This document shows, piece after piece, positions 3,761 to 26,799 of a stretch of 26,799 bases of DNA. The stretch covers positions 1-26,799 of IMG/VR virus record IMGVR_UViG_3300043395_003138. One strand, given 5' to 3'. Origin of the DNA: a virus. The notes below the pieces were generated by a model that was not told where the DNA came from, did no database searches, and saw nothing but the letters and a program-made list of their open reading frames with translations. Every line of letters begins with the position of its first letter. Positions within the stretch are counted from its first letter, which is position 1. The position numbers and the translations under genes are program-made.

Positions 3761-3785
3761 AAAAGGACTCTTCGGAGTCCTTTTT
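3761..3785 (+). terminator. Intrinsic terminator after gp23
   Basis: A perfect 10-bp stem (AAAAGGACTC with GAGTCCTTTT) closed by the very stable C(UUCG)G tetraloop, followed by a T run. It lies 30 bases after the capsid gene stop and should end the head-gene transcript. A late promoter begins 5 bases after it. Confidence 0.93.
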
Positions 3786-3789
3786 CATT

Positions 3790-3797
3790 TATAAATA
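3790..3797 (+). promoter_or_regulatory. T4-type late promoter TATAAATA for the zinc-ribbon gene
   Basis: An exact match to the T4 late promoter consensus, placed between the gp23 terminator and the next gene. Only 4 bases separate it from the ATG at 3802. With the T4 spacing, transcription would start at or one base inside the start codon, implying leaderless translation or a somewhat different start site. Confidence 0.7.
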
Positions 3798-3801
3798 CCT
3801 T

Positions 3802-4035
3802 ATGTTAAAAACAGTAAGTGAACAAGTAAAACAAGAAAGACTTACCATTTGTAAGTCCTGTGATAGATACAGTCAAACACTGAGAACTTGCAAAGAATGT
3901 GGATGTTATATGCCCGCCAAAGCAATGTTTGCCGCAACATCTTGTCCAATTAACAGTTGGTCAGAAGCAGAAGCAGGCACAGATTTGATCAACAAACTAG
4001 AAGAAATGATACTGGCTTCTTGGAATAAAGAATAA
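3802..4035 (+). CDS. Small zinc-ribbon protein of unknown function
   Basis: A 77-residue protein with six cysteines: C17-x2-C20, C30-x2-C33-x-C35 and C48. The pattern CKSC...CKECGC...SCP is that of small zinc-ribbon proteins common in T4-like and other phages, where they often follow structural genes. The first two Cys pairs can hold one zinc ion; C35 and C48 may add to the fold. The C-terminal third is acidic and helical. No catalytic residues are seen, and the role could be protein or nucleic-acid binding. It has its own late promoter and no visible Shine-Dalgarno sequence, since the promoter abuts the ATG. No other in-frame ATG lies before the first Cys, so the start at 3802 is the only reasonable one. 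Confidence 0.82.
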   Translation: MLKTVSEQVKQERLTICKSCDRYSQTLRTCKECGCYMPAKAMFAATSCPINSWSEAEAGTDLINKLEEMILASWNKE

Positions 4036-4062: not shown

Positions 4063-4070
4063 AATAAATA
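4063..4070 (+). promoter_or_regulatory. Probable late promoter AATAAATA
   Basis: The sequence TAATAAATAATAGTATG puts a late-promoter-like AATAAATA 5 bases before the ATG at 4076. The core TAAATAATAGTA recurs exactly in the candidate promoter near 11960. By T4 spacing the predicted start of transcription coincides with the A of the ATG. Confidence 0.6.
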
Positions 4071-4075
4071 ATAGT

Positions 4076-4471
4076 ATGAACAACTACCAAAAAATTCACG
4101 GAACCACAGTTGATAAGTTTGATATTGGAACAAAAAATCAAAGAATAGTTCTTACTGGGCAAACAATTAACGCACTAACAACAAACTTAGTCGATCGTGA
4201 TGGCAATTCTTATACTGCAAATTCTACGGTATTTTTCTCTGCGTACATAGTTGGACAAGGATCAAACACAGCAGCCTATGAACTAAAAGGTTGTTATCTA
4301 AATGGTACTACGACTACTACGGGTTATGTAGTTAACACTTATGTAGACACGGGAGAATTCACAGAACCCGCTGTTAGTTTTTCTGATCAAGGAGAAATGA
4401 CAGTAACTTGCACAGGCTTGTTTGGTGAAAATATTAATTGGACAGCTACCTTTGATTTTGTTTTGATATAA
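4076..4471 (+). CDS. Small beta-rich virion-associated protein (putative)
   Basis: 131 residues, rich in Thr, Asn, Val and Gly, with alternating hydrophobic patterns that predict an all-beta fold. The segments FFSAYIVGQGSNTAAYELKG, TGYVVNTYVD and the closing NWTATFDFVLI resemble a short beta-sandwich module often found on phage virion surfaces and fiber proteins. This is recognition by resemblance only. Only one Cys pair (ELKGCY and VTCTG) is present and there is no enzyme motif. The late-type promoter directly before it and the fiber genes after it support a structural role, such as a head decoration or appendage protein. No Shine-Dalgarno sequence is visible. Its stop codon lies inside the late promoter of the next gene. 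Confidence 0.7.
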   Translation: MNNYQKIHGTTVDKFDIGTKNQRIVLTGQTINALTTNLVDRDGNSYTANSTVFFSAYIVGQGSNTAAYELKGCYLNGTTTTTGYVVNTYVDTGEFTEPAVSFSDQGEMTVTCTGLFGENINWTATFDFVLI

Positions 4472-11924: not shown

Positions 11925-11956
11925 AGAAAGGGAGAGGTAACTCTCCCTTTCTTTTT
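11925..11956 (+). terminator. Intrinsic terminator after the giant fiber gene
   Basis: A perfect 12-bp stem AGAAAGGGAGAG / CTCTCCCTTTCT with a GTAA tetraloop, followed by a T run. It lies 19 bases after the stop codon and directly before a candidate late promoter. Confidence 0.95.
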
Positions 11957-11957
11957 G

Positions 11958-11965
11958 GCTAAATA
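11958..11965 (+). promoter_or_regulatory. Candidate late promoter GCTAAATA for the 166-aa fiber gene
   Basis: It matches the late-promoter core only in TAAATA, but shares the longer string TAAATAATAGTA with the promoter at 4063. It also has the expected place, after a terminator and 19 bases before an ATG. Confidence 0.5.
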
Positions 11966-15422: not shown

Positions 15423-16802
15423 ATGGCAGCAACTAAAAAAATTCGAGTTGACCGTACATTCAGTACAAGCAATGATGTTGAAGATAAAGGTGCATCATCG
15501 GTTGTTGAAAAAGCTCGTCAGCTTGACACAAGCCGCACCATTAACGGTGTTGGCTTTAACGGTACCGCAAATATCAGTTTCGGTACAGACAGCGTAAGTG
15601 AAGGTTCTACTAATAGATACTACACAGATGCTCGTGCAAGAGCCGCAGTTAGTGCAAGCACTGGTATTAGCTATAACAGTTCAACTGGTGCTATTACAAA
15701 TAGTGGTGTATTAAGTGTTAACGGTAGCACAGGTGCAATTACCGGTATTGCTAACGCAAGTGATGTACACTACATTGGTACAACAAGCGTAGCATTAAAC
15801 CGTACCAGTGCTAACTTGGCACTAACAGGTATTAGCTCTGTTACATTACCAGGTAGTACAAGCGGTACAGTTCAACTTATCCCAACAGCAGCAGTTGGTG
15901 TTGGTACAGTATTAACAATTCCAGCAACAACTGGTACAATCGTTACAACTGGCGATACTGGTACAGTTACAAACACCATGTTAGCAGGTTCTATTGCCAA
16001 CGCTAAATTGACAAACAGCAGTGTTACCGTAACAGCAGGTACAGGTTTAAGTGGTGGTGGCGCAGTATCACTAGGTGGTTCAGTTACTTTAACTAACGCT
16101 GGTGTTACTTCTCTTACAACAAGCAGTGGTTTAAGTACAAACACAAGTGCTACAGGCGCCGTTTCTATTACAAACACTGGCGTATTAACTGTTGCAACAA
16201 GTACAGGTATAAGCACAAGTGCAAGCTCAGGTGCAATCACTCTTACAAACACCGGTGTAACAAGCGCAGTAGCAGGTACAGACATTAGCGTATCCGGAGC
16301 AACAGGTGCAGTTACAATTAACAATACAGCTACATTATCCACCGTTACCGGTCGTGGTGCCACAACTGGTTCAGCAATTAGTATTACGAATGCTACTGCT
16401 TCTACAAGCAAGATTACTGGTGCATTAATCGTAACTGGCGGTGTTGGTGTTAGCGGTGCTATGTATGTTGGTGGTGAAGTAACAGCTTACGCTTCTGACG
16501 CAGCCTTAAAGACAAATGTAGTAGCAATCGGCGATGCATTAAGCAAAGTCGAAGCTATCCGCGGTGTGTCATATGACTGGAACGAAGCAGGTGTTGCTTT
16601 AGGCTTAGGCACAGACAAGCAAATTGGTGTTATTGCTCAAGAAGTTGAAGCAGTATTACCAGAATTGGTTGTTCAAAGTGCTCACGAAGGTTACAAGACA
16701 GTTAAGTATGACAAGCTAACAGCATTGTTAATCGAAGCGGTCAAAGACCTAAGTGCTAAAGTGAAGACACTAGAAGCACAGTTGGGTAATAAGTCATTAT
16801 AA
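15423..16802 (+). CDS. Tail fiber/spike with C-terminal S74 self-cleaving chaperone
   Basis: A 459-residue fiber-type protein. The first 80 residues contain one EGSTNRYYTDARARAAVS repeat; the middle (100-345) is Thr/Ser/Gly-rich beta repeat shaft. Residues 355-459 form a Peptidase_S74 intramolecular chaperone: SDAALKTNV with Ser358 and Lys363 as the catalytic pair, then GVSYDW, QIGVIAQEVEAVLPELV and a C-terminal coiled coil (YDKLTALLIEAVKDLSAKVKTLEAQL). In this family the domain drives trimer folding and then cuts itself off just before the Ser, here between residues 357 and 358. The usual Arg in SD-x-RLK is Ala. AAAGGA lies upstream of the ATG and the gene follows the 940-aa fiber by 18 bases, so the two are probably co-transcribed. 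Confidence 0.92.
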   Translation: MAATKKIRVDRTFSTSNDVEDKGASSVVEKARQLDTSRTINGVGFNGTANISFGTDSVSEGSTNRYYTDARARAAVSASTGISYNSSTGAITNSGVLSVNGSTGAITGIANASDVHYIGTTSVALNRTSANLALTGISSVTLPGSTSGTVQLIPTAAVGVGTVLTIPATTGTIVTTGDTGTVTNTMLAGSIANAKLTNSSVTVTAGTGLSGGGAVSLGGSVTLTNAGVTSLTTSSGLSTNTSATGAVSITNTGVLTVATSTGISTSASSGAITLTNTGVTSAVAGTDISVSGATGAVTINNTATLSTVTGRGATTGSAISITNATASTSKITGALIVTGGVGVSGAMYVGGEVTAYASDAALKTNVVAIGDALSKVEAIRGVSYDWNEAGVALGLGTDKQIGVIAQEVEAVLPELVVQSAHEGYKTVKYDKLTALLIEAVKDLSAKVKTLEAQLGNKSL

Positions 16803-16805
16803 TTT

Positions 16806-16838
16806 CCTAGCAGTGGATGGGGCAACCCATCCACTAGG
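16806..16838 (+). terminator. Stem-loop after the S74 fiber gene
   Basis: A 10-bp stem AGTGGATGGG / CCCATCCACT with a GCAA (GNRA) loop, extended by CCT/AGG across a 3-base bulge. It lacks a T run, so termination is uncertain; mRNA 3'-end protection is possible. The last G of the stem is the first base of the next late promoter. Confidence 0.65.
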
Positions 16839-16845
16839 ATAAATA
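16838..16845 (+). promoter_or_regulatory. Late promoter GATAAATA for the 64-aa gene
   Basis: GATAAATACTT begins on the last base of the preceding stem-loop and lies 18 bases before the ATG at 16864. The predicted short leader contains an AGGAG ribosome site. Confidence 0.8.
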
Positions 16846-16863
16846 CTTCAACAGGAGATTAAA

Positions 16864-17058
16864 ATGCCGATTTTACCAGCAACAGGTACAGAAATTACAA
16901 TGGGTAGGGTTCGCCAATCTTATACCAATACAGCCCCGGCAGCTGGCGCTAACATTGCGCTAAGTGGCACAATGGCAAGTTATATTGGTCAATCAACAGG
17001 TACTCAAATTAGTTTGAGCTCTGCATTTGGTGGAAGAACATTCCCATATACATACTAA
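16864..17058 (+). CDS. Small virion-associated protein (64 aa)
   Basis: 64 residues starting MPILPATGTEITMGRVRQSY. It resembles a short module frequent in phage structural proteins, in which LPASG-x-ISMSQV begins the chain and I-S-L/M-S-x-x-G ends it; the C-terminus here reads QISLSSAFGGRTFPYTY. The module is usually attached to larger fiber or collar proteins, so a free small copy could be a fiber cap or accessory subunit. It has its own late promoter, a good AGGAG ribosome site and a promoter/terminator unit directly after it. There are no catalytic residues and no Cys. Confidence 0.78.
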   Translation: MPILPATGTEITMGRVRQSYTNTAPAAGANIALSGTMASYIGQSTGTQISLSSAFGGRTFPYTY

Positions 17059-17077
17059 TTCTAATAAGAAACTTAAC

Positions 17078-17085
17078 TATAAATA
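17078..17085 (+). promoter_or_regulatory. Late promoter TATAAATA overlapping a terminator hairpin
   Basis: An exact consensus whose last five bases form part of the 5' arm of the hairpin at 17081-17108. Predicted transcription starts near 17091, in the hairpin loop, so the RNA lacks the 5' arm. Confidence 0.8.
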
Positions 17086-17112
17086 CCTCAATAAAACTTG
17101 AGGTATTTTTTT
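17081..17112 (+). terminator. Terminator hairpin whose 3' arm is the next gene's ribosome site
   Basis: A 10-bp perfect stem AAATACCTCA / TGAGGTATTT with an 8-base loop, followed by a T run that ends directly at the ATG at 17113. The 3' arm contains GAGG, the only Shine-Dalgarno-like sequence for the next gene. RNA reading through from upstream would pair it with CCTC. Confidence 0.85.
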
Positions 17113-17670
17113 ATGACCGACGAAACCCAAAATAATTCTTTTGACTTGGACAAACTATTAGATACTTGTCCGTATCCTGTGTTCAGTGATTTTGAAAGAG
17201 AAAACTTTTACAATGAAACAGGAGCCGCACTGTCTCGATATGTTATTGATACTGTAAACAGGATAAGAAAAATAGACAGCGATTTGGACAGCGAAAATCG
17301 AACCTATGAAAGAAACTGTTTAGAAGCTGAACGCACCAAGCTAGTAAAGTTTTTAAAGAGCCAAAAATTCGAATCTTTAGAAGAAGCAATTACCAATTGG
17401 GAGTTTGTAGAACAAGAATATTGGACACACTTTCTTGGCAAAAAAGCCGCACTTGAACTTCTTACATTTGGTAAAACAACCTACGAAACAATGAGCTTAA
17501 TGGTTAAACTGCCCGAAGCCAATTATATCAAAGCAACACAGATCTGTGTTAAACTAGCAAACACAATTAAAAACGCAACAGAAGCCGCAGAAAAAGAAGT
17601 AGGCGTAGTTGCAGGGCCGGGCGGCACAGGTGTTAAGAAAAACATTATACTCAAGCGTCCTAATGTATGA
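17113..17670 (+). CDS. Conserved-looking protein of unknown function (185 aa)
   Basis: I do not recognise this protein. The start is set at the ATG at 17113 (MTDETQNNSF); the in-frame TTG 15 bases upstream lies in the terminator stem and is rejected. The chain is mainly helical and acidic, with aromatic-rich segments (PYPVFSDFERENFY, NWEFVEQEYWTHFLG) and a helical centre KKAALELLTFGKTTYETMSLM. A Gly-rich turn (AGPGGTG) and a basic end KKNIILKRPNV close it. No enzyme motif, signal peptide or membrane segment is present. The late promoter before it and 4-base ATGA overlap with the glycosyltransferase indicate late expression and a linked role, perhaps a small virion or assembly protein. Confidence 0.8.
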   Translation: MTDETQNNSFDLDKLLDTCPYPVFSDFERENFYNETGAALSRYVIDTVNRIRKIDSDLDSENRTYERNCLEAERTKLVKFLKSQKFESLEEAITNWEFVEQEYWTHFLGKKAALELLTFGKTTYETMSLMVKLPEANYIKATQICVKLANTIKNATEAAEKEVGVVAGPGGTGVKKNIILKRPNV

Positions 17671-18305
17671 TTGAAAATTTTAGGGTTGCTGTTTGTATTC
17701 CCGCTAGGGATCAAATGCACACAGCAACGACCTATTCTTTGTGGAATCTCTGCGAACTGCTTTCTCGCCTAGGAGTAGAAAGCAGGTTGTTTATTGCCGC
17801 TGGCACACTGATTTGCAATCAAAGACATAACTTAGTAGAATCTGCCAAAGAGTGGGAAGCAACTCATGTCATGTTTATTGACAGTGACATGGAATTTGAA
17901 CCGCATCATGTTATTGAATTGTTGGAATTTGATCAACCTATTGTTGGTGCCGCTTATAGCAAAAGAGTTGAACCACTGTTGCCTACAGCTTGGTATAAAA
18001 TAGATGACTGGGACAGTTGGGTTAAGTTTGACAAAGTAGAAGAAACTCATATACAAGTTGAAGCCATGGCTTTGGGCTTTTGTTTAATAAGAATGGATGT
18101 CTTTGATATAGTTCCCAAGCCTTGGTTTGTGTTAGGATATCATGAAGGTCAGTATACAGGAGAAGACATTGAGTTCTTTAGAATGTGTAATAAGCAAGGA
18201 TTAAAAATTTGGCTTGATGTGCAAACTTCTTGCGAGATAGGTCATCTAGGAATTAAGAGCTATAAAATATTTGGCGATGACGATGTAGACTTTGCCATTT
18301 CTTAA
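17667..18305 (+). CDS. GT-A type glycosyltransferase (family 2-like)
   Basis: 212 residues with the glycosyltransferase 2-like layout: the opening strand FRVAVCIPARDQMHT, then LICNQRHNLVESA, the metal-binding DxD motif in MFIDSDMEF (residues 72-74), IVGAAYSKR, and GEDIEFFRMC (166-168), which could supply the catalytic base. A late His in EIGHLG (194) is the usual third metal ligand in this class. No membrane segments are present, so it is a soluble enzyme using an activated sugar. The acceptor is unknown: phage DNA, a virion protein or host surface glycan are all possible. It starts by ATGA overlap with the preceding gene. Its last 53 bases overlap the convergent gene on the other strand, and no terminator is seen there. 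Confidence 0.88.
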   Translation: MIENFRVAVCIPARDQMHTATTYSLWNLCELLSRLGVESRLFIAAGTLICNQRHNLVESAKEWEATHVMFIDSDMEFEPHHVIELLEFDQPIVGAAYSKRVEPLLPTAWYKIDDWDSWVKFDKVEETHIQVEAMALGFCLIRMDVFDIVPKPWFVLGYHEGQYTGEDIEFFRMCNKQGLKIWLDVQTSCEIGHLGIKSYKIFGDDDVDFAIS

Positions 18306-18648
18306 GCCACTTGTTTAGTTTGTTTGTATTCTGTTCAGCAATAATAGATGTGTGACCGTTGTTAAATTCTTGTTGTAACTTTAAATCTTTTTCACAGCAT
18401 TCTATTAGCAAGTCTAAAGTTGTATCGTTTATAGACAGCAGTGTTTGAATCAACGGGTGTTGCTCTTTTTCTAAATTTAATAAATGTTGAACTTGCAAAT
18501 ACCATCTCTCAACATAACATATTTCTTCTCGAAATAAACTATTAAGGTATGGATTATTAAGCCGTTGATCCCAGCTATAAAATAAGTCTACTGACTTTGC
18601 TCTTTTAAGATGCCTCTTCCTGGGAAACTGTATTATCTCTGCTGGCAT
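18253..18648 (-). CDS. Helical protein of unknown function (131 aa)
   Basis: I do not recognise this protein. It has a basic start MPAEIIQFPRKRHLKRAK, then helices rich in aromatic and acidic residues (LFREEICYVERWYLQVQHLLNLEKEQHP), a pair of Cys (IECCEKD) and a basic end. There is no enzyme motif, signal peptide or membrane segment. It overlaps the Nudix gene by 44 bases at its start and runs 53 bases into the glycosyltransferase gene on the opposite strand at its end. Such tight packing is normal in phages, but it makes this the least certain of the minus-strand genes. No alternative Met start lies inside the first half. Confidence 0.68.
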   Translation of the reverse strand: MPAEIIQFPRKRHLKRAKSVDLFYSWDQRLNNPYLNSLFREEICYVERWYLQVQHLLNLEKEQHPLIQTLLSINDTTLDLLIECCEKDLKLQQEFNNGHTSIIAEQNTNKLNKWLKKWQSLHRHRQIFYSS

Positions 18649-19078
18649 TCTTATTATCCACCCAACTGTAAAAGTTTTTAAACTTTTTAATAAGCCTGGA
18701 AGAACTTATCATTTTTCTTGCTTTAGGATGTAATGGATTAGGCAACGAATCAATGCTAGTCCAAGCATACCCTGCGCTTTCCCAATTCAACTCTGGGACA
18801 AATTCTTTGTTGACAAGCACCACGAATGTATCGTAGATAAAATCTTTGCTTCTGCTTTGATATCTATGAAGCGGTGTTATCTTTTTAATTTTTGTTAAAT
18901 TTAATTCTTCTTTTAATTCTCGACGAAGTGCATCAGCTGGAGTTTCTTCGTGCTCTACTCGGCCTCCTGCAAAAGTCCAAGTGTTAGGATGAGTTTCACG
19001 AGCACTACGAAGTATAGTCATAACCTTGCCTGTACTTTCGCTTACAATAATAGCTCCAACTCCTTTGAACTGTTTCAC
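18605..19078 (-). CDS. Nudix hydrolase (MutT-like)
   Basis: The Nudix box is complete: G39-x5-E45-x7-R53-E54-L-x-E57-E58, with Asn in place of the usual final Gly. It is set in the family frame GVGAIIVSESTGKVMTILR...WTFAGGRVE. These enzymes split nucleoside diphosphates linked to another group; the substrate here (oxidised dNTP, ADP-ribose, dinucleotide, capped RNA) cannot be read from sequence. I chose the GTG at 19078 (157 aa, MKQFKGVGAI). It overlaps the gp15 stop as GTGA and has a GGTGGAG ribosome site 9 bases upstream. A GTG at 19093 would add five residues but lacks such a site. It is translated with the gp14-gp15 operon, an odd place for a housekeeping-type enzyme. Confidence 0.92.
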   Translation of the reverse strand: MKQFKGVGAIIVSESTGKVMTILRSARETHPNTWTFAGGRVEHEETPADALRRELKEELNLTKIKKITPLHRYQSRSKDFIYDTFVVLVNKEFVPELNWESAGYAWTSIDSLPNPLHPKARKMISSSRLIKKFKNFYSWVDNKNASRDNTVSQEEAS

Positions 19079-20430
19079 AAATATAATCTCCACCAGCCGT
19101 TTCTATATGTGCCTTCTGTGGCACTAATCCATTGACCTAATCGCCATTCATAGATAATGCTTGACGCAGTATTTAACACAATGGCATTAGAATTAGATGC
19201 ACTGTCAAAACTAACTACCCATGTACTTCCGTTGTACTGTATAATGTCATTGGCACTAGCAGAGGATGTGCCCCATGCACCAGAGTTAGGCAAGTCTGCT
19301 AAAATTAAATATCGTTGTCCTATCAACGGACTTGGCAGTCCTCGTCCTGGTCCAACTCTTGTAGGATCAATGATACCACTAATAGACGGGATATTAGTAA
19401 TAGGCAATGTATCTTGGTCGACAGTAATGTAAGCCAAATTACCTTGACTAGGATCTAGTTCATTAATAACTGCAATAATATCGTTGTTTGGATCACTGGG
19501 ATCGTCTCCTCGACGAAGTCTGATATTACTAATACCTAAGCGTATTTCCCCAAATGACTTTAATGAATCTGCCCAAGTTAAAGGATTGCCTTCATCGTCT
19601 ACTACGCCGCCAGATTTGTTAAGCAACAGTGCTTGATTGCCTTCGATGCGTACTTGAAGTTTTCTATCTTCAAATGTTACAATAACCCATTGCTTGGTAG
19701 GAGCCGGATCAACAGGATTCCAATCAAGTGGATTGTCTCCTTCGCTTAGTTTTTTAATGTCTGTTAATATAGTATGAATAAGCGTTTGCCTCTTAACTTT
19801 GGCAGGCGGATTAATAAAAACAGGAATAGTAAAGTTTAACGCGGTAACATCGATGATGTCGTCGGTGCCCATTGGAACTTGTCTAACGCTCCACACAATG
19901 TTAACTAACTCTGCATAAGTCAAATTACTCCAGTCAAATGGATTGTCGTTGGTTTTAAAATTAATACTTGGATTGAATAGAACTAACAACTGTTCCATTA
20001 ATTGTAGTTTTTGATCAGTGTTAGATGTCCAAATATCCACTTGTAGTGTTAGGTCGTAGGGCACAGGCACATGTCGTTCAATGGTGTAAGTATTGCCAAC
20101 TTCACCTTCTATGTACTCGCCAGTAGTAGGATCAAACTTCTTTTCGTAGACCTGCACCTTATTGATGTGTGTAGGGTTAGTTCTGCGTTCAGCACTGATT
20201 TGCATGTCTGTAACATAACAGCTGATAAACGGAACAGTATTAATCATATTCTCACTTTGGTTCTTCATAATGTGAGCAGCCATACGATTAATGTCACCGT
20301 AACGCACAGGCACTTGAATATAACTTTCGTTTCCGTTTCTGTCTTTACCGGTCTTAACACTGAACCCACCCAGTATACGCATAAACTGAGTTAGGTAGCG
20401 TCTTATTTGTTCGTCGTAAAAATACAGCAT
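19075..20430 (-). CDS. gp15: Tail sheath stabiliser/tail completion protein gp15, with long C-terminal extension
   Basis: The N-terminal 250 residues match T4 gp15, which caps the tail tube and sheath and joins the tail to the neck. Shared features are the opening YFYDEQIRRYLTQFMRI, the strand YIQVPVRYGDINRMAAHIM, TVPFISCYVTDM, the PVPYDLTLQVDIWT strand with MEQLLVLFNPSINF, and the ALNFTIPVFINPP segment. From about residue 250 to 451 there is an extension absent from T4 gp15 (272 aa). It is beta-rich and ends in a module of the type DIIQYNGSTWVVSFD...IVLNTASSIIYEWRLGQWI...GTYRNGWWRLYL, seen in other phage structural proteins. The extension could decorate the neck or anchor an appendage. It follows gp14 by one base. 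Confidence 0.88.
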   Translation of the reverse strand: MLYFYDEQIRRYLTQFMRILGGFSVKTGKDRNGNESYIQVPVRYGDINRMAAHIMKNQSENMINTVPFISCYVTDMQISAERRTNPTHINKVQVYEKKFDPTTGEYIEGEVGNTYTIERHVPVPYDLTLQVDIWTSNTDQKLQLMEQLLVLFNPSINFKTNDNPFDWSNLTYAELVNIVWSVRQVPMGTDDIIDVTALNFTIPVFINPPAKVKRQTLIHTILTDIKKLSEGDNPLDWNPVDPAPTKQWVIVTFEDRKLQVRIEGNQALLLNKSGGVVDDEGNPLTWADSLKSFGEIRLGISNIRLRRGDDPSDPNNDIIAVINELDPSQGNLAYITVDQDTLPITNIPSISGIIDPTRVGPGRGLPSPLIGQRYLILADLPNSGAWGTSSASANDIIQYNGSTWVVSFDSASNSNAIVLNTASSIIYEWRLGQWISATEGTYRNGWWRLYL

Positions 20431-20431
20431 G

Positions 20432-21478
20432 TTAGAAATCCGTTTTTGGCCTAATAACTTGGCTTAATGATTGACGCTCAGGCATCTCTTGGTTACCAAT
20501 AACCGTGGTATTTGTATTGTTAATAAATGGTGCGGCGTTCAATACTCGATCCTTAACATCTGCTAATCCTTCACCAGTTTGTACTCGTTGCCAGCGGGTT
20601 CCTCTGTAAACAAACAAAGTAGCCGGGTTATAGTCTGTACGCAAGAAGAAATCTCCTTGTGAAGGATTCAACGGGAAGCTCAAACCAGAGTCTAAAACTT
20701 CGCCGTGATCATAAGTTGGGTTTTCGTTACGCTGATAACTCTTGCTGGTTTTACTGATTAAATTATCTTCGTTGTCTAATAAACTAGGGGCAAGTTGTTC
20801 GCCTCTTTCAACAATAGCATTACTAATTTTTAATTCTGTTTGGTAAGTGCTTAACGCTTCTTTTAGTGTATCAACACCGTTATCTGCTTTTTGCTGTAGG
20901 ATATCTCTGTACTCTTGAGCATCAGTCATTGGGCTTGCTTTGATACGCCAAATGTGAGGATACCAAGTTGGACTAAAACCTTCTGCGGCACGACTAGCAT
21001 CTTGGATAACATAGAATTTATTGATAGCAGGCTTGCTTTGATCTAATAACAAATCATCGCGAACATGGGGAAGTTCGATGACATCGCCGGCCATTAGTTT
21101 TCGTCCCATGCGCTCAATCATGTCGTTGATGTGAAAGCTAACAAAAATTGTGTCAGCACTTAGAAACAAACCGAACTGAGTTAAGTCAAAGTCTTGGTCT
21201 CCGACATTGTACACTCCTCGAAGTTCATAGACATCGGGATCATAAATCCTGTCTCTGTTTTCTAAAAACAGCAAGTCTTGAATTTTTGTTTCGTTGAGTA
21301 TATCGTCGGCTGTATAGTTTGGTTTCGTTGGATCGTCGCTTGCTCCTTGATCGGCAGGCTGTAGATACTTGTGAACCAAAACAGCGGTTCCTCCCACAAA
21401 GAACTGCTCACGAATGATCTTGTCCATAAAGTGGAAGTCTTTTGTTTTTTCGTTTTTCCAAAGGCTTAGTCTAGGCAT
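20432..21478 (-). CDS. gp14: Neck protein gp14
   Basis: A 348-residue neck protein of the T4 gp14 type, which with gp13 closes the packaged head and receives the tail. Supporting features are the position immediately before gp15 in the T4 order, the early segment IIREQFFVGGTAVLVHKYL, the FGLFLSADTIFVSFHINDM block, AGDVIELPHVRDDLLL, and KFYVIQDASRAAEGFSPTWYPHIWRIKASP, which parallels the T4 gp14 FPMDNSLFEI region. The last third (NPSQGDFFLRTDYNPATLFVYRGTRWQ) is a beta segment common in virion proteins. It is longer than T4 gp14 (256 aa). The start ATG follows a GGTAAATACT sequence on the minus strand, a possible late promoter. It heads a minus-strand operon that runs against its T4 partner gp13, encoded 3 kb away on the other strand. 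Confidence 0.82.
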   Translation of the reverse strand: MPRLSLWKNEKTKDFHFMDKIIREQFFVGGTAVLVHKYLQPADQGASDDPTKPNYTADDILNETKIQDLLFLENRDRIYDPDVYELRGVYNVGDQDFDLTQFGLFLSADTIFVSFHINDMIERMGRKLMAGDVIELPHVRDDLLLDQSKPAINKFYVIQDASRAAEGFSPTWYPHIWRIKASPMTDAQEYRDILQQKADNGVDTLKEALSTYQTELKISNAIVERGEQLAPSLLDNEDNLISKTSKSYQRNENPTYDHGEVLDSGLSFPLNPSQGDFFLRTDYNPATLFVYRGTRWQRVQTGEGLADVKDRVLNAAPFINNTNTTVIGNQEMPERQSLSQVIRPKTDF

Positions 21479-21486
21479 AATGTTAG

Positions 21487-21494
21487 TATTTACC
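21487..21494 (-). promoter_or_regulatory. Possible late promoter GGTAAATA for gp14-gp15
   Basis: Reading the minus strand, GGTAAATACT lies 8 bases before the gp14 ATG. It matches the TAAATACT core of the plus-strand late promoters but not the first two bases, so it is a weaker candidate. It is the only late-like sequence upstream of this operon. Confidence 0.45.
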
Positions 21495-21506
21495 TATAAA
21501 ATTAAA

Positions 21507-21535
21507 TTGACAATAAATGGAAATTATTATATAAT
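21507..21535 (+). promoter_or_regulatory. Perfect sigma70 promoter for the metallopeptidase gene
   Basis: TTGACA (21507-21512), 17-base spacer, TATAAT (21530-21535): both boxes and the spacing are consensus for host sigma70 RNA polymerase. The start of transcription is expected near 21542, before an AAAGGA ribosome site and the ATG at 21559. This marks the gene as early or middle. Confidence 0.92.
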
Positions 21536-21558
21536 TGGTTATACGACAAAGGAATACC

Positions 21559-21960
21559 ATGGAATTCGTAGTCAAAACACGCAGTAAAAAGACAAAAAAA
21601 TTTATAGACAGTATCATGCCCAGTTTGATCAAGCAACTAGGCTTGACTAATAGTCGTAAATTTGTATTAATTGAAATTTGCCGACTTGACGCGGATAAAG
21701 GGTTGACTACTCCACTGCCGGGATTAGACAGTTATGTCATTGCTTTAAACCCTGCAAAATGGGAAGAATTAGGTTCCACACTTGCACATGAAATGGTTCA
21801 TGTCAGGCAATTAGCCAAAGGTATACTTAAAGCAGAAGGCGGCACCAAATGGTGGCGAGGAAAAAAGTACACTAAGCGTACCAAATATTTGGACATGCCT
21901 TGGGAAATCGATGCCTTTGCTAGACAAGAACTTTTATTTCGTCGCGCCCTTGAAATGTAA
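21559..21960 (+). CDS. Putative HExxH zinc metallopeptidase
   Basis: 133 residues with a classic zinc protease helix LAHEMVHVRQLAKG (His77, Glu78, His81) and a downstream PWEIDAFARQ whose Glu116 is a good third zinc ligand, as in gluzincins. The N-terminal half is a small alpha/beta region with SYVIALNP before the active-site helix. No signal peptide is present, so it should act in the cytoplasm. I cannot name a substrate; phage proteins of this build are mostly uncharacterised. The start is the ATG at 21559, with AAAGGA 6 bases upstream; the in-frame TTG at 21535 overlaps the promoter and is rejected. A perfect sigma70 promoter points to expression soon after infection, for example to act on a host protein. 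Confidence 0.82.
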   Translation: MEFVVKTRSKKTKKFIDSIMPSLIKQLGLTNSRKFVLIEICRLDADKGLTTPLPGLDSYVIALNPAKWEELGSTLAHEMVHVRQLAKGILKAEGGTKWWRGKKYTKRTKYLDMPWEIDAFARQELLFRRALEM

Positions 21961-21984
21961 TACTTTGTACTACATTCTCAATAA

Positions 21985-22013
21985 TTGACAATAATTGGTA
22001 AATTTGCTATAAT
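21985..22013 (+). promoter_or_regulatory. Perfect sigma70 promoter for the 377-aa/lipoprotein operon
   Basis: TTGACA (21985-21990), 17-base spacer, TATAAT (22008-22013). The surroundings AATTGACAATAA match the promoter at 21507, so the two look like copies. Transcription should start near 22020, before an AAGGA ribosome site and the ATG at 22039. Confidence 0.92.
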
Positions 22014-22038
22014 ATTGGTATAGCTTGTAAGGAACCAT

Positions 22039-23172
22039 ATGAAACCCACAGTAAGCATCAAACCACTGAATCCAAGAAGTGCTGATACGAAGTACACTGG
22101 CACAGAGCCTATTTGGAAAACTCAGCCCACCGACAATCGTTTTTCCGAAATGACTCGTGCATTTAATTGGTACGGGTATTTTTACGGCAAAAAAGATGCC
22201 AAAGAATTTGTTGCCATTTATTTAGACTTCAACGGTCGTACAAAGGACTCGAAGAAGATCCGTGCTTTACCCGACAGCCAAGTTAGAACGACTACAGGGT
22301 GGTTGTGCCGTATGGTACTAATGGGCTTGCAGTTAACAGAGCAAGAGCAAATCAAACTAGATAATTATCTCAATGAGTTGCTGTCTAGTAAAGAGGAAAA
22401 AGTAGAAGATGTTGCCGTAGAAGAAACAGCGAGTCGTCCAAATATCCAGGACCGACTCAACGAAAAGATGAGCGAGTGTCTGGGCGAAGTTGAAGGTCGC
22501 TTTGACGAGTTTGTTACAGCACAACAATTTAAAGGCGAGCCTAAGCTGATTGAACTGTTTACGCAGTTCAATGTTCAGCCTGCTCAACTTAAAACAGCTC
22601 AACAACTTATTGAAAATAAGGTTGCAGAGTTCAGCGAAATCCTTGACACCAAAGACAGTCAAGTGTTGGAAGCATATAAACATCTTGGTAAGCGCCAACT
22701 TAACGCTATTGTAAAATGGTGGCAACAGGCATTGGCTGATGTTAACAGCTACAACATTGTCAAGAAGGCTAGCCGCGCCCCTCGCAAGAAAAAGGCAGTC
22801 AGCCCTGAGAAGGTTGTCAGCAAGCTCAAGTTCCTAAAAGAATTTGATGAGCTAAAACTCAAAAGCGTGGAGCCAACTGCAATTCTTACAGCCACAGAAT
22901 TGTGGGTCTACAATACAAAGACTCGTAAGCTAGGCATTTACATTGTAGACCAATACGCTGGCGCATTAAGTGTTAAAGGCACAAAGGTAACTGGTTTCGA
23001 CGCCGCCGCAAGTGTTCAAAAGACTTTGCGTAAGCCAAAGGAACAATTAAAAGAGTGGGCCAGTAACGGAAAGCCTGCCGCTAAAAAGTGGTTTAAAGGA
23101 GTGCGTAGCACAGAGATTAAACTTAATGGTACAATCAACGCAGACATGATTCTGCTGAAAGCATACAAGTGA
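22039..23172 (+). CDS. Protein of unknown function (377 aa)
   Basis: I cannot assign a function. The N-terminal 110 residues form a compact-looking region (RFSEMTRAFNWYGYFYGKKDAKEFVAIYL...LPDSQVRTTTGWLCRMVLMG). A Glu/Lys-rich helical stretch (about 110-240) with WWQQALADVNSY follows, then a very basic linker ASRAPRKKKAV. The C-terminal domain (280-377) has a beta-type core, ATELWVYNTKTRKLGIYIVDQYAGALSVKGTKVTGFD, and a Lys-rich end. The basic linker and C-terminus suggest nucleic-acid binding. It is driven by a perfect sigma70 promoter, so it is probably made early or middle. Its stop overlaps the lipoprotein start (GTGA), so the two are translationally coupled. Confidence 0.85.
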   Translation: MKPTVSIKPLNPRSADTKYTGTEPIWKTQPTDNRFSEMTRAFNWYGYFYGKKDAKEFVAIYLDFNGRTKDSKKIRALPDSQVRTTTGWLCRMVLMGLQLTEQEQIKLDNYLNELLSSKEEKVEDVAVEETASRPNIQDRLNEKMSECLGEVEGRFDEFVTAQQFKGEPKLIELFTQFNVQPAQLKTAQQLIENKVAEFSEILDTKDSQVLEAYKHLGKRQLNAIVKWWQQALADVNSYNIVKKASRAPRKKKAVSPEKVVSKLKFLKEFDELKLKSVEPTAILTATELWVYNTKTRKLGIYIVDQYAGALSVKGTKVTGFDAAASVQKTLRKPKEQLKEWASNGKPAAKKWFKGVRSTEIKLNGTINADMILLKAYK

Positions 23173-24401
23173 AAAATATTCTTCTTGCTTCTTTGGTATC
23201 CGCCTTTTTAGTTGCCTGTGGCGGTGGCGGTGGCGGTACAACTGCGACTTCTAGCCCTGCTCCTGATCCAACACCAACACCCTTGACGACTTTGTTTGCA
23301 ACTTCATATGAAAATATGAAAAGTCGAAACTTGTCGCAGTTCAAGATTCCAGCAGGACTCAATATTAGCAGTGCATGGGCAGTAGGAGACTTCTTTGGAG
23401 ACGGCACTATTAGTATTATGCTCTCTGACAATAGCAACAGCATTTCTTGCTATAGTCCTGCCGGCATTGATCCGGCTTGCATTAGCGGCGCATCTGCTCC
23501 GTTGTACATCAATGACAGTCGTCGTGCAGTTTTTCGTTTTTATAAGTTAACAAGTTCTAACACACTTGAAGCAACCAACAGGACTGTACAAGGCTGTCTA
23601 ACTCCTCGCAAAGCTGTGGTTGCAGACTTTAATCGCGACGGTCATGCTGACATTTTTGTTGCTTGCCACGGATGGGATGCTGAAATAAACGGGCAATGGC
23701 CCGGTGAACCAAGCAAGCTCTTGATCAATGACGGGCATGGAAATTTTACTGCGTCTGATGTTGGAGCAACTGATCGCAATGCAAGCGGTGCTGGCTACTA
23801 TCACGGTGCTAGTGCGGCAGACATTAACGGGGATGGTTATCCTGATATTGTGTTAACTGATAACTTTCGAGCCGCCGGCAAAAACATTACGGTACTGATT
23901 AATCAGCAAACCAACCCGGTAACATTTGCAGTGGACGCCAATCGAGTTGGCGGACAAACAGACGGGCCTTACTTTTCTGTAGAGTTTATTGATTTAAACG
24001 GAGACGGCAAAGTTGACATTGTTGCCGGTGGCGGCGAAGCTCCGAATGGAAATGCAGAAACAGTTATTCTTTACAATGATGGCAACGGCTATTTTGGATT
24101 TGGAACAAGAAAAACAACGATTCCTGCGGTTATCAATCAAAGTAACATGCAAGCAATGACCCCGATGGACTTTACTGTATTCAGTAAAGCACCTGACGAA
24201 AAACTGCTAATGATTAGCCGCACTGATTATTCGATCCAGTCAGTTCAAATTTACAATATAAAAACAAACACTTCGACTATTGTTCGACAAACTGATAATA
24301 CTTGGGTTGAGTGGTGGTTGCCAGCAACTAAAAATGGTGTAAAAGGAATGATTCCTTACTCAGACACTAGAAACAAAGATGCTTGGGTTCCTATGCCCTA
24401 A
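23169..24401 (+). CDS. Lipoprotein with FG-GAP/VCBS beta-propeller repeats
   Basis: The N-terminus MKNILLASLVSAFLVACGG is a lipoprotein signal with lipobox LVAC and Cys17 as the lipidated residue. Six glycines and a Pro/Thr tether follow. Residues about 70-290 contain FG-GAP/VCBS motifs with calcium-binding DxDxDG-type loops: VADFNRDGHADIFVA (Asp153), AADINGDGYPDIVLT (Asp218), FIDLNGDGKVDIVAG (Asp275), and a weaker VGDFFGDGTISIML (Asp74). The fold is an integrin-like beta-propeller, expected on the periplasmic or outer face of the outer membrane. The GTG start overlaps the previous stop by 4 bases, with host-type sigma70 expression. Phage lipoproteins of other folds block receptors against superinfection; that role is a reasonable but unproven guess. 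The gene looks host-derived. Confidence 0.88.
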   Translation: MKNILLASLVSAFLVACGGGGGGTTATSSPAPDPTPTPLTTLFATSYENMKSRNLSQFKIPAGLNISSAWAVGDFFGDGTISIMLSDNSNSISCYSPAGIDPACISGASAPLYINDSRRAVFRFYKLTSSNTLEATNRTVQGCLTPRKAVVADFNRDGHADIFVACHGWDAEINGQWPGEPSKLLINDGHGNFTASDVGATDRNASGAGYYHGASAADINGDGYPDIVLTDNFRAAGKNITVLINQQTNPVTFAVDANRVGGQTDGPYFSVEFIDLNGDGKVDIVAGGGEAPNGNAETVILYNDGNGYFGFGTRKTTIPAVINQSNMQAMTPMDFTVFSKAPDEKLLMISRTDYSIQSVQIYNIKTNTSTIVRQTDNTWVEWWLPATKNGVKGMIPYSDTRNKDAWVPMP

Positions 24402-24418
24402 TAGCTAAATCCAAAACT

Positions 24419-24455
24419 AAATCTCCCGATAAATACAATATCGGGAGATTTTTTT
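24419..24455 (+). terminator. Terminator hairpin with embedded late promoter and ribosome site
   Basis: A perfect 13-bp stem AAATCTCCCGATA / TATCGGGAGATTT with a 7-base loop, followed by a T run reaching the ATG at 24456. It ends the early lipoprotein operon. The 3' arm carries GGGAGA, the ribosome site of gp13, and the 5' arm carries its complement TCTCCC. Confidence 0.93.
24428..24435 (+). promoter_or_regulatory. Late promoter GATAAATA inside the terminator loop
   Basis: GATAAATAC spans the top of the 5' arm and the loop of the hairpin. By T4 spacing transcription starts near 24441, in the 3' arm, so gp13 mRNA has a leader of about 15 bases with a free GGGAGA ribosome site. Confidence 0.82.
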
Positions 24456-25199
24456 ATGACTAGAGACGAGCTAATTAAAGAGATAGAATTGCGACTAGGC
24501 GGCGGCATGGTAGATGTTGAACTGGACCGCGACCACTATGATCTTGCTATAAACAAAGCAGTGAGAAAATATAAACAACGAGGATCTCGAGCCATACAAG
24601 AAAAATTTCTTCCGTTAAACATCCAAACAGAAGTACAAACTTATCAACTTCCAAAAGAAGTTGTTTTAGTAAGAGATGTGATGTTGCGACACACTGGCAG
24701 TATTGGTATTAGTGCTACAGGAGTTGACTTTGACCCGTTTAACACAATGTATTTGAGCAATATGTTATTGCAAAACAATAATAGTTTTTCTGGGTTACAG
24801 AACTACGAATTCTATGCAGACCGTCGTGAGTTGTTGTCTAGAATGTTTGGTGGCTATGTAACTTTTACATGGAATCAAAATGACCACACTTTGTTTGTTC
24901 ATAGAAAATTTAGAGCAGACGATAATGTTTATATGTGGTGCTTTGTTGAGCGTGACGAAACAGACTTGCTTACAGATCCTTATTCAGGACCATGGTTAGT
25001 TGATTATGCATTTGCTCAATCTAAATTTATACTGGGAGAAGCTCGTAGCAAGTTTGGACAAATTGCAGGACCTCAAGGCGGCACAACTTTAAACGGCGAT
25101 AACTTAAAAAGCGAAGCTGCCGCAGACATTGAAAAGTTAGAACGAGATTTAGAGTTATATGTCGACGGAAGCCAACCATTAGGATTTATAATTGGATAA
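24456..25199 (+). CDS. gp13: Neck protein gp13
   Basis: 247 residues of the neck protein type found in T4-like phages of aquatic bacteria, which with gp14 seals the portal after packaging. The N-terminus MTRDELIKEIELRLG...VDVELDRDHYDLAINKAVRKYKQRGSRA is the usual helical start (a LG-x-P/G...V-x-E-x-T/D-x-x-x-x-x-AI repeat with a Tyr-rich helix). A beta region (TYQLPKEVVLVRDV), the FNWxxxxxTLFVHRK-like strand FTWNQNDHTLFVHRKF, and the closing block LTDPYSGPWLVDYAFAQSKFILGEARSKFGQIAGPQGG then GDNLKSEAAADIEKLERDL follow. It is shorter than T4 gp13 (309 aa). The ATG is placed directly after the T run, with GGGAGA 7 bases upstream. Confidence 0.85.
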   Translation: MTRDELIKEIELRLGGGMVDVELDRDHYDLAINKAVRKYKQRGSRAIQEKFLPLNIQTEVQTYQLPKEVVLVRDVMLRHTGSIGISATGVDFDPFNTMYLSNMLLQNNNSFSGLQNYEFYADRRELLSRMFGGYVTFTWNQNDHTLFVHRKFRADDNVYMWCFVERDETDLLTDPYSGPWLVDYAFAQSKFILGEARSKFGQIAGPQGGTTLNGDNLKSEAAADIEKLERDLELYVDGSQPLGFIIG

Positions 25200-25497
25200 G
25201 CAACATAGAATTACCAGCGAAACTTTTCGCAGTCAGGGAGATGATCCTACAGTTCCGGATAACTATGTAGATCCGCAAGTTCTTGCCGACTTAAGAAGGC
25301 TAGCAGGCATAGACAGTTTGAGTTTATTAAAGCCCTATGCGCCTTCAGTAACCGAAGAAAAGAATATCAGTGACATTGGTACTGAAAGAGCAAAATATCA
25401 ACGCAAGCATGACATTCGTCCTGGCACAGACGAATGGTTTAAATTATGGTTTGCTCGTCCAAAATTAACTGGCGAAAATCCCGAGCCTAAAAAGTAA
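25192..25497 (+). CDS. Small protein with LRRLAGI motif (101 aa)
   Basis: Function unknown. The frame opens with a TTG at 25192 directly after an in-frame stop, overlapping the gp13 end by 8 bases. An AGGA ribosome site lies 7 bases upstream, so TTG is the most likely start; no in-frame ATG exists before residue 80. The chain is hydrophilic, with the motif DLRRLAGIDSLSLL near residues 33-46, like the SLRKLAGIGK end of gp22. It ends in a helical segment with HDIRPGTDEWFKLWFARPKLTGE, which looks conserved. There is no signal or membrane segment. Coupling to gp13 suggests a late or virion-linked function. Confidence 0.78.
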   Translation: MDKQHRITSETFRSQGDDPTVPDNYVDPQVLADLRRLAGIDSLSLLKPYAPSVTEEKNISDIGTERAKYQRKHDIRPGTDEWFKLWFARPKLTGENPEPKK

Positions 25498-25499
25498 GT

Positions 25500-25607
25500 A
25501 TGTTTATGAAACGCATTGTCAAATGGTTTAAAGACATATTTGAGCGCAGGCGCCTTCGTAAAAAGTTAAAAGCGTTGGCAAAAAAGCCACCCTTTATATA
25601 TTTCTAA
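25500..25607 (+). CDS. Very small basic protein (35 aa)
   Basis: A 35-codon frame, ATG at 25500 (or 25506), lies between two genes and ends 1 base before the next ATG. The product is strongly basic and amphipathic: MKRIVKWFKDIFERRRLRK followed by KLKALAKKPPFIYF. The neat fit between neighbours, the absence of other coding content and the helix-with-PFIY-end pattern, which I recall from small proteins of other T4-like phages, support a real gene. The role is unknown; membrane surface or nucleic-acid binding is possible. The ribosome site is weak. Confidence 0.68.
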   Translation: MFMKRIVKWFKDIFERRRLRKKLKALAKKPPFIYF

Positions 25608-25608
25608 A

Positions 25609-26136
25609 ATGAACGACAATATAAAACAAGACCTTTGGTCTTGGATTACAGACTTTATAGAAGTCAATCACGAATTTTACAATTTCAAGTTTCCTCCTTG
25701 CCCTTATGCAAAATCAGCAAGGCTTAAAGGCTTGGTTGATGTTCAAGTCTGTGATAAAAATCCTTTTAAGTTTTTCAACGAACAAGTTGACGATATAATC
25801 GCCGAACAGAAATTTAATGTTCGTTTGCTAGCATTTCCACACTACCACAAATGGAACTATTTGTTACACAAATATGTCAAGAACAAAAATAAGAAGTCTA
25901 CTAAAGATAACTTCTACTCTCAATACGGTCTTGCCGCAGAAACACAAAGCAAGTTTTCAGGATTGTTTTCAGGAAAACCGTATTTCATTGTAATCATAAA
26001 CAAACTGGACGATGTATTGGATGCTCAACGAACTTTGGAAAGAACCGATTACTATAAAAATTGGTCTGAAAAACACTTTGAAGAAGTGGTAGTTCGTAGG
26101 CAAAAGATGTTTGAAAAATACAGCAAAAAAGATTGA
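25609..26136 (+). CDS. Protein of unknown function with FPPCPYA motif (175 aa)
   Basis: I recognise no function. The N-terminal part reads DLWSWITDFIEVNHEFYNFKFPPCPYAKSARLKG, where the Pro-Pro-Cys-Pro-x-Ala-x-x-Ala motif and a second Cys (QVCDKNPF) are the most notable features. A central LLAFPHYHKWNYLLHKYV and a strand KPYFIVIINKLDDVLDAQRTLERTDYY suggest a small alpha/beta fold. The C-terminus is a charged helix. There is no signal peptide or membrane segment. It follows the 35-aa gene by 1 base with no own ribosome site visible, so it is likely translated by coupling. It ends where the next sigma70 promoter begins. Confidence 0.82.
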   Translation: MNDNIKQDLWSWITDFIEVNHEFYNFKFPPCPYAKSARLKGLVDVQVCDKNPFKFFNEQVDDIIAEQKFNVRLLAFPHYHKWNYLLHKYVKNKNKKSTKDNFYSQYGLAAETQSKFSGLFSGKPYFIVIINKLDDVLDAQRTLERTDYYKNWSEKHFEEVVVRRQKMFEKYSKKD

Positions 26137-26160
26137 CAGTTTAGGTTATTTTGTTATATA
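26133..26160 (+). promoter_or_regulatory. Sigma70-type promoter for the nucleotidase/kinase genes
   Basis: TTGACA (26133-26138), 16-base spacer, TATATA (26155-26160). The -35 box overlaps the stop codon of the gene before. Transcription should start near 26167, giving an almost leaderless mRNA for the ATG at 26169. Confidence 0.78.
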
Positions 26161-26168
26161 CTTGTAAC

Positions 26169-26663
26169 ATGAAAATCTACTTAGACATGGACGATGTTGT
26201 AGCTGACTGGCTTGTCTTGGCACAACAAATTTTAGGCAAGACCTGGGATCCGGGCGAGCGAATCCCACAACATGAGTGGGACACTCTTAAAGAAAACGAA
26301 CGCTTTTACTTTGACTTGCCATTAAAAGAAGGCGCACACGAATTAGTACACTGGGCTTTACAATATCAAAAAACACACCCTGAAACTTGTTCAGGTGTTA
26401 GGTTTTTAACAGCACTGCCGCATGATTATACCGTGCCTTTTGCCGCACAGGATAAAGTATGGTGGGCACATAGATATTTTCCAGGCGTTCCTGTATTCTT
26501 TGGGCCTTTTAGTCACGATAAGTGGCGTCACTGTAAGCCCGGAGATTTGTTAATCGATGACAGGCATAGTAATTGCAGTGAATGGCGTGCCGCTGGCGGC
26601 ATCGCACATGAATACACTACATGGAAAGAATGTAGATCTTGGCTAAAGGAGAACTTTGAATGA
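26169..26663 (+). CDS. 5'(3')-deoxyribonucleotidase (NT5C-type, HAD superfamily)
   Basis: 164 residues with the HAD phosphatase motifs: nucleophile motif MKIYLDMDDVVADW (Asp6 nucleophile, Asp8 acid/base) at the very N-terminus, motif II in VRFLTALPH, a Lys in FSHDKWRHC, and motif IV in LLIDDRHSNCSEWRAAGG. The enzyme removes phosphate from deoxynucleoside monophosphates and helps balance the dNTP pool during phage replication. The start is the ATG at 26169; the upstream in-frame TTG lies inside the promoter. There is no ribosome site between promoter and ATG, suggesting leaderless translation. Its stop overlaps the dNMP kinase start (ATGA). The two enzymes act in opposite directions on the same substrates. 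Confidence 0.9.
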   Translation: MKIYLDMDDVVADWLVLAQQILGKTWDPGERIPQHEWDTLKENERFYFDLPLKEGAHELVHWALQYQKTHPETCSGVRFLTALPHDYTVPFAAQDKVWWAHRYFPGVPVFFGPFSHDKWRHCKPGDLLIDDRHSNCSEWRAAGGIAHEYTTWKECRSWLKENFE

Positions 26664-26799
26664 TTATTGGAGTTTGTGGTTTTATTGGCAGCGGTAAAGA
26701 CACTATTGCAGACTATCTAGTTAACAATCACGGCTTTCGACGAGAAAGCTTTGCAAATACACTCAAAGACGCAGTAAGCGCAGTGTTTGGGTGGGACCG
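26660..26799 (+). CDS. Deoxynucleoside monophosphate kinase (partial, 3' end outside window)
   Basis: The first 46 codons are visible. MIIGVCGFIGSGKDTIADYL contains a P-loop GFIGSGKDT, and the following GFRRESFANTLKDAVSAVFGW matches the T4 gene 1 dNMP kinase type (GVKRSGKDTTADF...IKDALAYAWG). It phosphorylates dNMPs to dNDPs for phage DNA synthesis. It starts by ATGA overlap with the nucleotidase and has a strong AAAGGAG ribosome site 9 bases upstream, better than the nucleotidase itself. Confidence 0.88.
   Translation, partial: MIIGVCGFIGSGKDTIADYLVNNHGFRRESFANTLKDAVSAVFGWD

Follow-up and report, generated by a model that had tools for sequence, protein, structure and literature searches.

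A late promoter box nested in a terminator-like, Shine-Dalgarno-pairing hairpin in front of gene 13 in jumbo T4-like phages

A hairpin between a lipoprotein gene and a neck gene

The DNA analysed here (the window, 26,799 nucleotides) is a 26.8-kb record of a T4-like phage of jumbo type. The hairpin parts, genes, sigma70-type promoters and second element described below lie on its plus strand. At 24456-25199 the window encodes a gene 13-like neck protein that matches phrog_211 (E 3e-31), whose product name, head-tail adaptor Ad2, is shared with T4 gene 13. The preceding gene at 23169-24401 encodes a lipoprotein with FG-GAP repeats and the lipoprotein-type signal LVAC, and in relatives it is replaced by unrelated genes. 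It belongs to a variable cargo site (22039-24401) between a conserved phrog_11903 gene and gp13, which in relatives is occupied by unrelated lipoprotein or secreted-protein genes and in some of them by none. The two ORFs are separated by 54 bases, and the hairpin lies inside this gap.

The 5' arm AAATCTCCCGATA (24419-24431) and the 3' arm TATCGGGAGATTT (24439-24451) were identified as an inverted repeat and by folding, and they pair perfectly at 13/13 positions around a loop of 7 nt (24432-24438) in the RNA fold. At a spacing of up to 30 this is the longest inverted repeat of the window. The region 24400-24480 folds with -23 kcal/mol (z = -5.4), and none of 200 shuffled sequences was equally stable. 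A T4-type late promoter box, GATAAATA, is found at 24428-24435; its first four bases are the last ones of the 5' arm, and its other bases are the first ones of the loop. In relatives the box reads GATAAATA or GCTAAATA, and the reported variants include TATAAATA, CTAAATA in Aeh1 and ATAAATA in CBB and GAP32 (PMC1524935, PMC5259590). The 3' arm carries the Shine-Dalgarno (SD) sequence of gene 13, GGGAGA (24443-24448), which pairs with TCTCCC (24422-24427), an anti-SD lock in the 5' arm that covaries in relatives. A T7 tract (24449-24455) fills the spacer between the SD and the ATG of gene 13 at 24456, 5 nt past the full stem. The first-pass annotation of this DNA had described a perfect 13-bp hairpin with a T run, a late promoter across its top and the gp13 SD in its 3' arm paired to TCTCCC, and the repeat search, the RNA fold and the coordinates of the two paired motifs confirmed each of these points.

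The window contains two perfect sigma70-type promoters (TTGACA-17-TATAAT) that were found by sequence scan at 21507-21535 and 21985-22013 and are putatively early. They lie 2.9 and 2.4 kb upstream of gp13 and are conserved in relatives. Exactly two such promoters occur within 6 kb upstream of gp13 in 5/5 genomes of the window group, at 2.1-3.3 kb, and from base composition far less than one perfect match would be expected per genome. In four of these five genomes no late box lies between the promoters and gp13, and in the fifth (G001) there is one at -1221. Between the two promoters and gp13, the hairpin at 24419-24451 is the sole strong terminator-like site on the plus strand. Judged by the promoter sequence, the RNA that arrives from upstream would be early. 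The motif ATAAATAC occurs six times in the window, always on the plus strand, with no copy on the minus strand and no copy of the reversed motif in the window. The late sigma factor family of gp55 (phrog_234) is present in the relatives G003, 121Q and PA5oct; the window itself is a genome fragment. The window also has hairpins that stand in series with a late box and are not nested with it, at 3761-3797 and 11925-11960 (terminator-like) and at 16812-16845 (without a T-tract).

Conservation at gene 13 and recurrence at other genes

Among 23 distinct gp13 leaders taken from related viral contigs, 22 carried the element. Across 19 distinct aligned leaders, the stem pairing was kept in 93.5% of the cells, compared with 90.3% when the partners were shuffled (0/500 shuffles reached the observed value) and 35-49% when they were slid. 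Double compensatory changes were seen at three stem pairs, among them a pair next to the SD where U-A replaces C-G. In the leader L212 one C and its partner G were lost together. The 5' arm marks a sharp onset of conservation; the DNA before it cannot be aligned. The upstream genes form six groups that share no detectable similarity, while the gp13 proteins are all of one family. As the element persists through replacements of the upstream gene, it belongs to gp13, and the idea that it is a feature of the upstream gene was rejected. A natural loss was observed in L214 (1400-1501), where gp13 has no late-box hairpin and GGAGATTTAGTATG is retained.

The same layout was found in ten distant jumbo phage isolates of the enteric type, whose gp13 is about 32-36% identical. 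Their stems are different, and each matches its own SD. The gp13 stem is ACCCCTAAATATG...ACATGTTTAGGGGT-ATTTTTATG in CBB, XbC2 and Kaldavass, with a slight difference in GAP32, and GCACCCCTAT...ATAGGGGTGC-TTTTATG in Munch. The layout was not found at gp13 of PA5oct, Atu_ph07, Phosso, SCTP-2 and Vibrio 2.275. No copy of at least 9 bp was found in S-WAM2, HTVC008M, Vibrio 2.275 and PA5oct, the last of which has one 8-bp copy. These four genomes rule out a general trait of all T4-like phages and, since the element is missing from several T4-like genomes, it is lineage-specific.

The first-pass annotation had proposed to look for nested late boxes in related T4-like genomes, and such boxes were found. 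We scanned 11 genomes, which were the window, four related contigs, 121Q, XaC1, Munch, SNUABM_19, PA5oct and T4. A late leader was defined as a late box followed by an SD and an ORF (n = 282), and a nested hairpin as a hairpin of at least 9 bp that includes the box, has the SD in its 3' arm and has a 5' arm mostly missing from the late RNA. Nested SD-hiding hairpins occurred in 31 of the 282 late leaders, compared with a mean of 0.76 and a maximum of 3 when the flanks were shuffled; in this count and in the p-values orthologous copies are treated as independent, and by gene the 31 leaders form about 13 groups. The main groups are gp13, the gene at 17113 of the window, the tail sheath gene and a DnaJ-like gene after ClpS in 121Q. 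Late boxes lay in such hairpins at a rate of 49 per 1000, compared with 1.4-6.8 per 1000 for permuted motifs. As a positive control, T4 gene e and I-TevII were recovered by the same scan. A sigma70-type promoter within 3 kb upstream, with no late box in between, was found for 11/22 nested leaders and for 30/193 others (p = 5e-4, orthologues counted separately). The shuffles, the permuted motifs and the covariation rule out a chance hairpin.

The window itself contains a second element, TATAAATACCTCAATAAAACTTGAGGTATTTTTTTATG, at 17078-17115. Its box TATAAATA overlaps the 5' arm AAATACCTCAA, and the 3' arm TTGAGGTATTT carries the SD GAGGT and is followed by a T-tract and the ATG at 17113. The gene served by it (17113-17670) matches the profile phrog_1409 and is of unknown function. 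In four related contigs the homologues of this element covary (CCTTGA/TCAAGG, CCTCGA/TCGAGG and CCTCAA/TTGAGG). A protein search of viral contigs for relatives of the 17113 gene found nothing, and we therefore used a DNA pattern scan of the viral contigs, which gave at least 56 distinct inner sequences of the second-element type. Among the 56 distinct matches listed, the pairing was extended by at least 3 inside the fixed core in 30, compared with 3.1 in shuffles, and an ATG followed within 10 nt in 41. This second copy and the many copies in relatives rule out a one-off element. We conclude that the element is real, conserved and recurrent.

At the tail sheath gene, a conserved SD-hiding hairpin of 10-14 bp has a late box atop its 5' arm and no T-tract. 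It is located at 262793 in 121Q, 139132 in XaC1, 121384 in Munch and 111586 in SNUABM_19, with the sheath annotated in the first three. Late boxes lie 240 nt to 2 kb upstream of the second element of the window and of the sheath copies, and the RNA that reaches these copies is probably late, not early. Nested elements with a T-tract were also seen at 35041 in 121Q, 239030 in Munch, 230555 in SNUABM_19 and 270474 in XaC1. In 121Q and Munch this element separates ClpS from the gene that follows, a DnaJ-like one in 121Q, and a perfect sigma70-type promoter lies about 1.2 kb upstream of it.

Predicted late start and predicted termination

The T4 late box spans -13 to -6 (PMC1524935). With this numbering, the late start (box start + 13) would fall within the 3' arm, on its third base (24441), and thus beyond position 24431, where the 5' arm ends; the late RNA would therefore lack the 5' arm. 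The earlier claim that the late RNA starts within the 3' arm is supported in this way, and the comparative evidence agrees with it. In related phages, the distance from the late box to the ATG peaks at exactly 13, which was observed for 18/32 distinct boxes in the sister-group loci and for 5, 6 and 2 genes in G001, G003 and G002, respectively. Leaderless late mRNAs would give such a peak, and it is an independent hint for the start offset. In the enteric jumbo phages, the box-to-ATG comparison showed that the 13-nt spacing is absent or rare. Late boxes 12-13 nt before an ATG were also seen in the window at 3790-3802 and 4063-4076 and at the gp13 starts of the loci L013-L049; at such sites the predicted start falls on the start codon or within 1 nt of it, and the late mRNAs are probably leaderless. 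In computed folds of the read-through RNA, the gp13 SD had an unpaired probability of 0.00, and the late RNA was weakly folded.

The hairpin can be read as a stem followed by a U-tract in two ways, with 13 pairs and TTTT or with 10 pairs and T7, and it was called terminator-like in the scan. Its terminator score is modest (d = 6) with all 13 pairs and reaches its best value (27) when the stem is trimmed to 10 bp. From the stem and the T-tract, termination at the hairpin is predicted. Outside T4, a run of at least four T was found in 19/30 hairpin leaders (stems of at least 8 bp) and in 20/248 other late leaders (8%; p ~1e-12). Across the copies, the stop codon of the upstream gene is located 5-21 nt before the hairpin (17 nt in the window), and a ribosome at a stop codon within such a distance can suppress termination (PMC4824070). 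With these gaps the termination is likely to be leaky, and the pairing of the ribosome binding site would then be a second safeguard.

The same gaps also speak against termination, and the element could be a translational lock of the T4 gene e type only, with the T-tract as an AT-rich unstructured spacer. In line with this, gene e and I-TevII of T4, recovered by the same scan, have no T-tract, and it is also missing from some other copies such as those of the tail sheath. However, the enrichment of T runs outside T4 argues against a mere spacer, and so does the terminator-like hairpin of 13 pairs at 24419-24451, the only strong one on its strand between the sigma70-type promoters and gp13. We regard a lock without termination as unlikely, though it keeps some weight. 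The element could conversely be an ordinary terminator of the upstream unit, with gp13 translation unaffected and the overlap with promoter and SD as mere sequence economy. The intergenic space is short, and the window terminators at 3761-3797 and 11925-11960 are placed just before late boxes. But many copies without a good U-tract still keep the SD paired, the letters of the stem change along with the SD, and a box in a hairpin whose 5' arm precedes the inferred start occurs far more often than in shuffles or with permuted motifs, which makes this explanation very improbable. A DNA-level role of the palindrome, as an operator or as a protein-bound cruciform at the late promoter, would fit the perfect inverted repeat around the promoter. 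It is hardly credible, since the stem sequence is not conserved between groups, and what is kept is the complementarity to the local SD.

Relation to known hairpins and a proposed cistron insulator

The late-promoter bypass of hairpins that hide a ribosome binding site is known and established in T4. The T4 genes e, soc, 49 and I-TevI have such hairpins, which are opened by an internal late promoter, according to the sections on these genes in PMC3014915 and PMC2988022, and the pairing of the SD in upstream-driven RNA is described to reduce T4 lysozyme synthesis 100-fold (PMC3014915). The gp13 element resembles the gene e type in that the SD is hidden in the upstream RNA and that the 5' part of the hairpin contains the late promoter and, with the inferred start, is missing from the late RNA; in T4 the late RNA is translated. 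In contrast, the T4 copies recovered in our scan lack a T-tract, and those sections do not describe them as terminators (PMC3014915, PMC2988022). In T4 the hairpins serve lysis, accessory and endonuclease genes, whereas the copies described here stand before core virion genes (neck and tail sheath) and before genes whose function is unknown. Aeh1 mobE and T4 segB also combine a hairpin that hides the ribosome binding site with a late promoter, for a gene in an early or middle unit, but they are homing endonucleases and not virion genes, and no terminator is described for the hairpin in the section on them (PMC2988022). Compared with a T4-type late promoter, the box sequence and its place before virion genes are alike, and relatives encode a gp55-family sigma factor, but here the box lies within a hairpin that extends across the predicted start. 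Compared with an intrinsic terminator, the G+C-containing stem, the T-tract and the place behind an upstream gene are alike, but here the T-tract also spaces the SD from the AUG, and the following gene begins 5 nt past the full stem. What is new is that a T-tract gives such a hairpin the appearance of an intrinsic terminator, and that the hairpin is used for core virion genes. Rfam gave no match in 16000-26799 at gathering scores, and no known riboregulator or riboswitch was recognised there. Our literature searches turned up no report of a late promoter within a terminator and no transcript maps of PA5oct, which does not prove their absence.

We consider it probable that the element is an insulator with two locks for a late gene, which combines partial termination, the SD lock and an own late promoter. 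For this phage we infer the start site, the termination, the early timing and the effect on translation from the sequence, and the steps would be as follows. A polymerase coming from the upstream unit would transcribe the whole hairpin and the U-tract, and part of the polymerases would terminate there. In the read-through RNA, the SD of gene 13 would be folded into the stem and gp13 would not be translated; a lock of this kind has been demonstrated for the T4 genes e and I-TevI. A gp55-type sigma factor would start the late RNA at the box in the hairpin top. This RNA would begin inside the 3' arm with a leader of about 15 nt and, without the 5' arm, the lock could not refold. The T-tract would act both as the U-tract of the terminator and as the spacer between SD and AUG, and gp13 would be made from its own late promoter only. 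The same layout serves other late cistrons of this phage group and of the enteric jumbo phages, some of them behind another late gene.

The first-pass annotation had interpreted the element as a switch between early and late expression. This stands in so far as the stem is kept, the predicted late start is past the 5' arm and the hairpin lies between the sigma70-type promoters and gp13 (5/5). It does not cover the copies where the arriving RNA is probably late. Because the layout also occurs behind late genes, a cistron insulator fits better than an early/late switch alone.

More tentatively, we suggest that a recurrent cassette of about 40 nt, consisting of terminator, lock of the ribosome binding site and late promoter, is a standard means by which certain T4-like jumbo phages, and many of their uncultivated relatives, fence off late cistrons. 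It may arise repeatedly at different genes, be kept when the upstream gene is exchanged and let the cargo be swapped; this is plausible but falls short of probable. If true, variable cargo genes could be swapped beside essential virion genes with their timing undisturbed, which offers a testable explanation for the uptake of variable lipoprotein cargo beside the neck gene. The element itself extends a regulatory device of a few T4 genes to the essential virion genes of giant phages and adds a probable termination function to the same hairpin. With the promoter inside a terminator and the SD in its 3' arm, it is a compact natural design that can be found by its pattern.

A minor observation concerns the annotation of gp13 in 121Q (L062, 1935). 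The annotated start (ATGAGGTGC...) sits on the SD, and the in-frame ATG after TTTTTT, as in relatives, is the likelier start.
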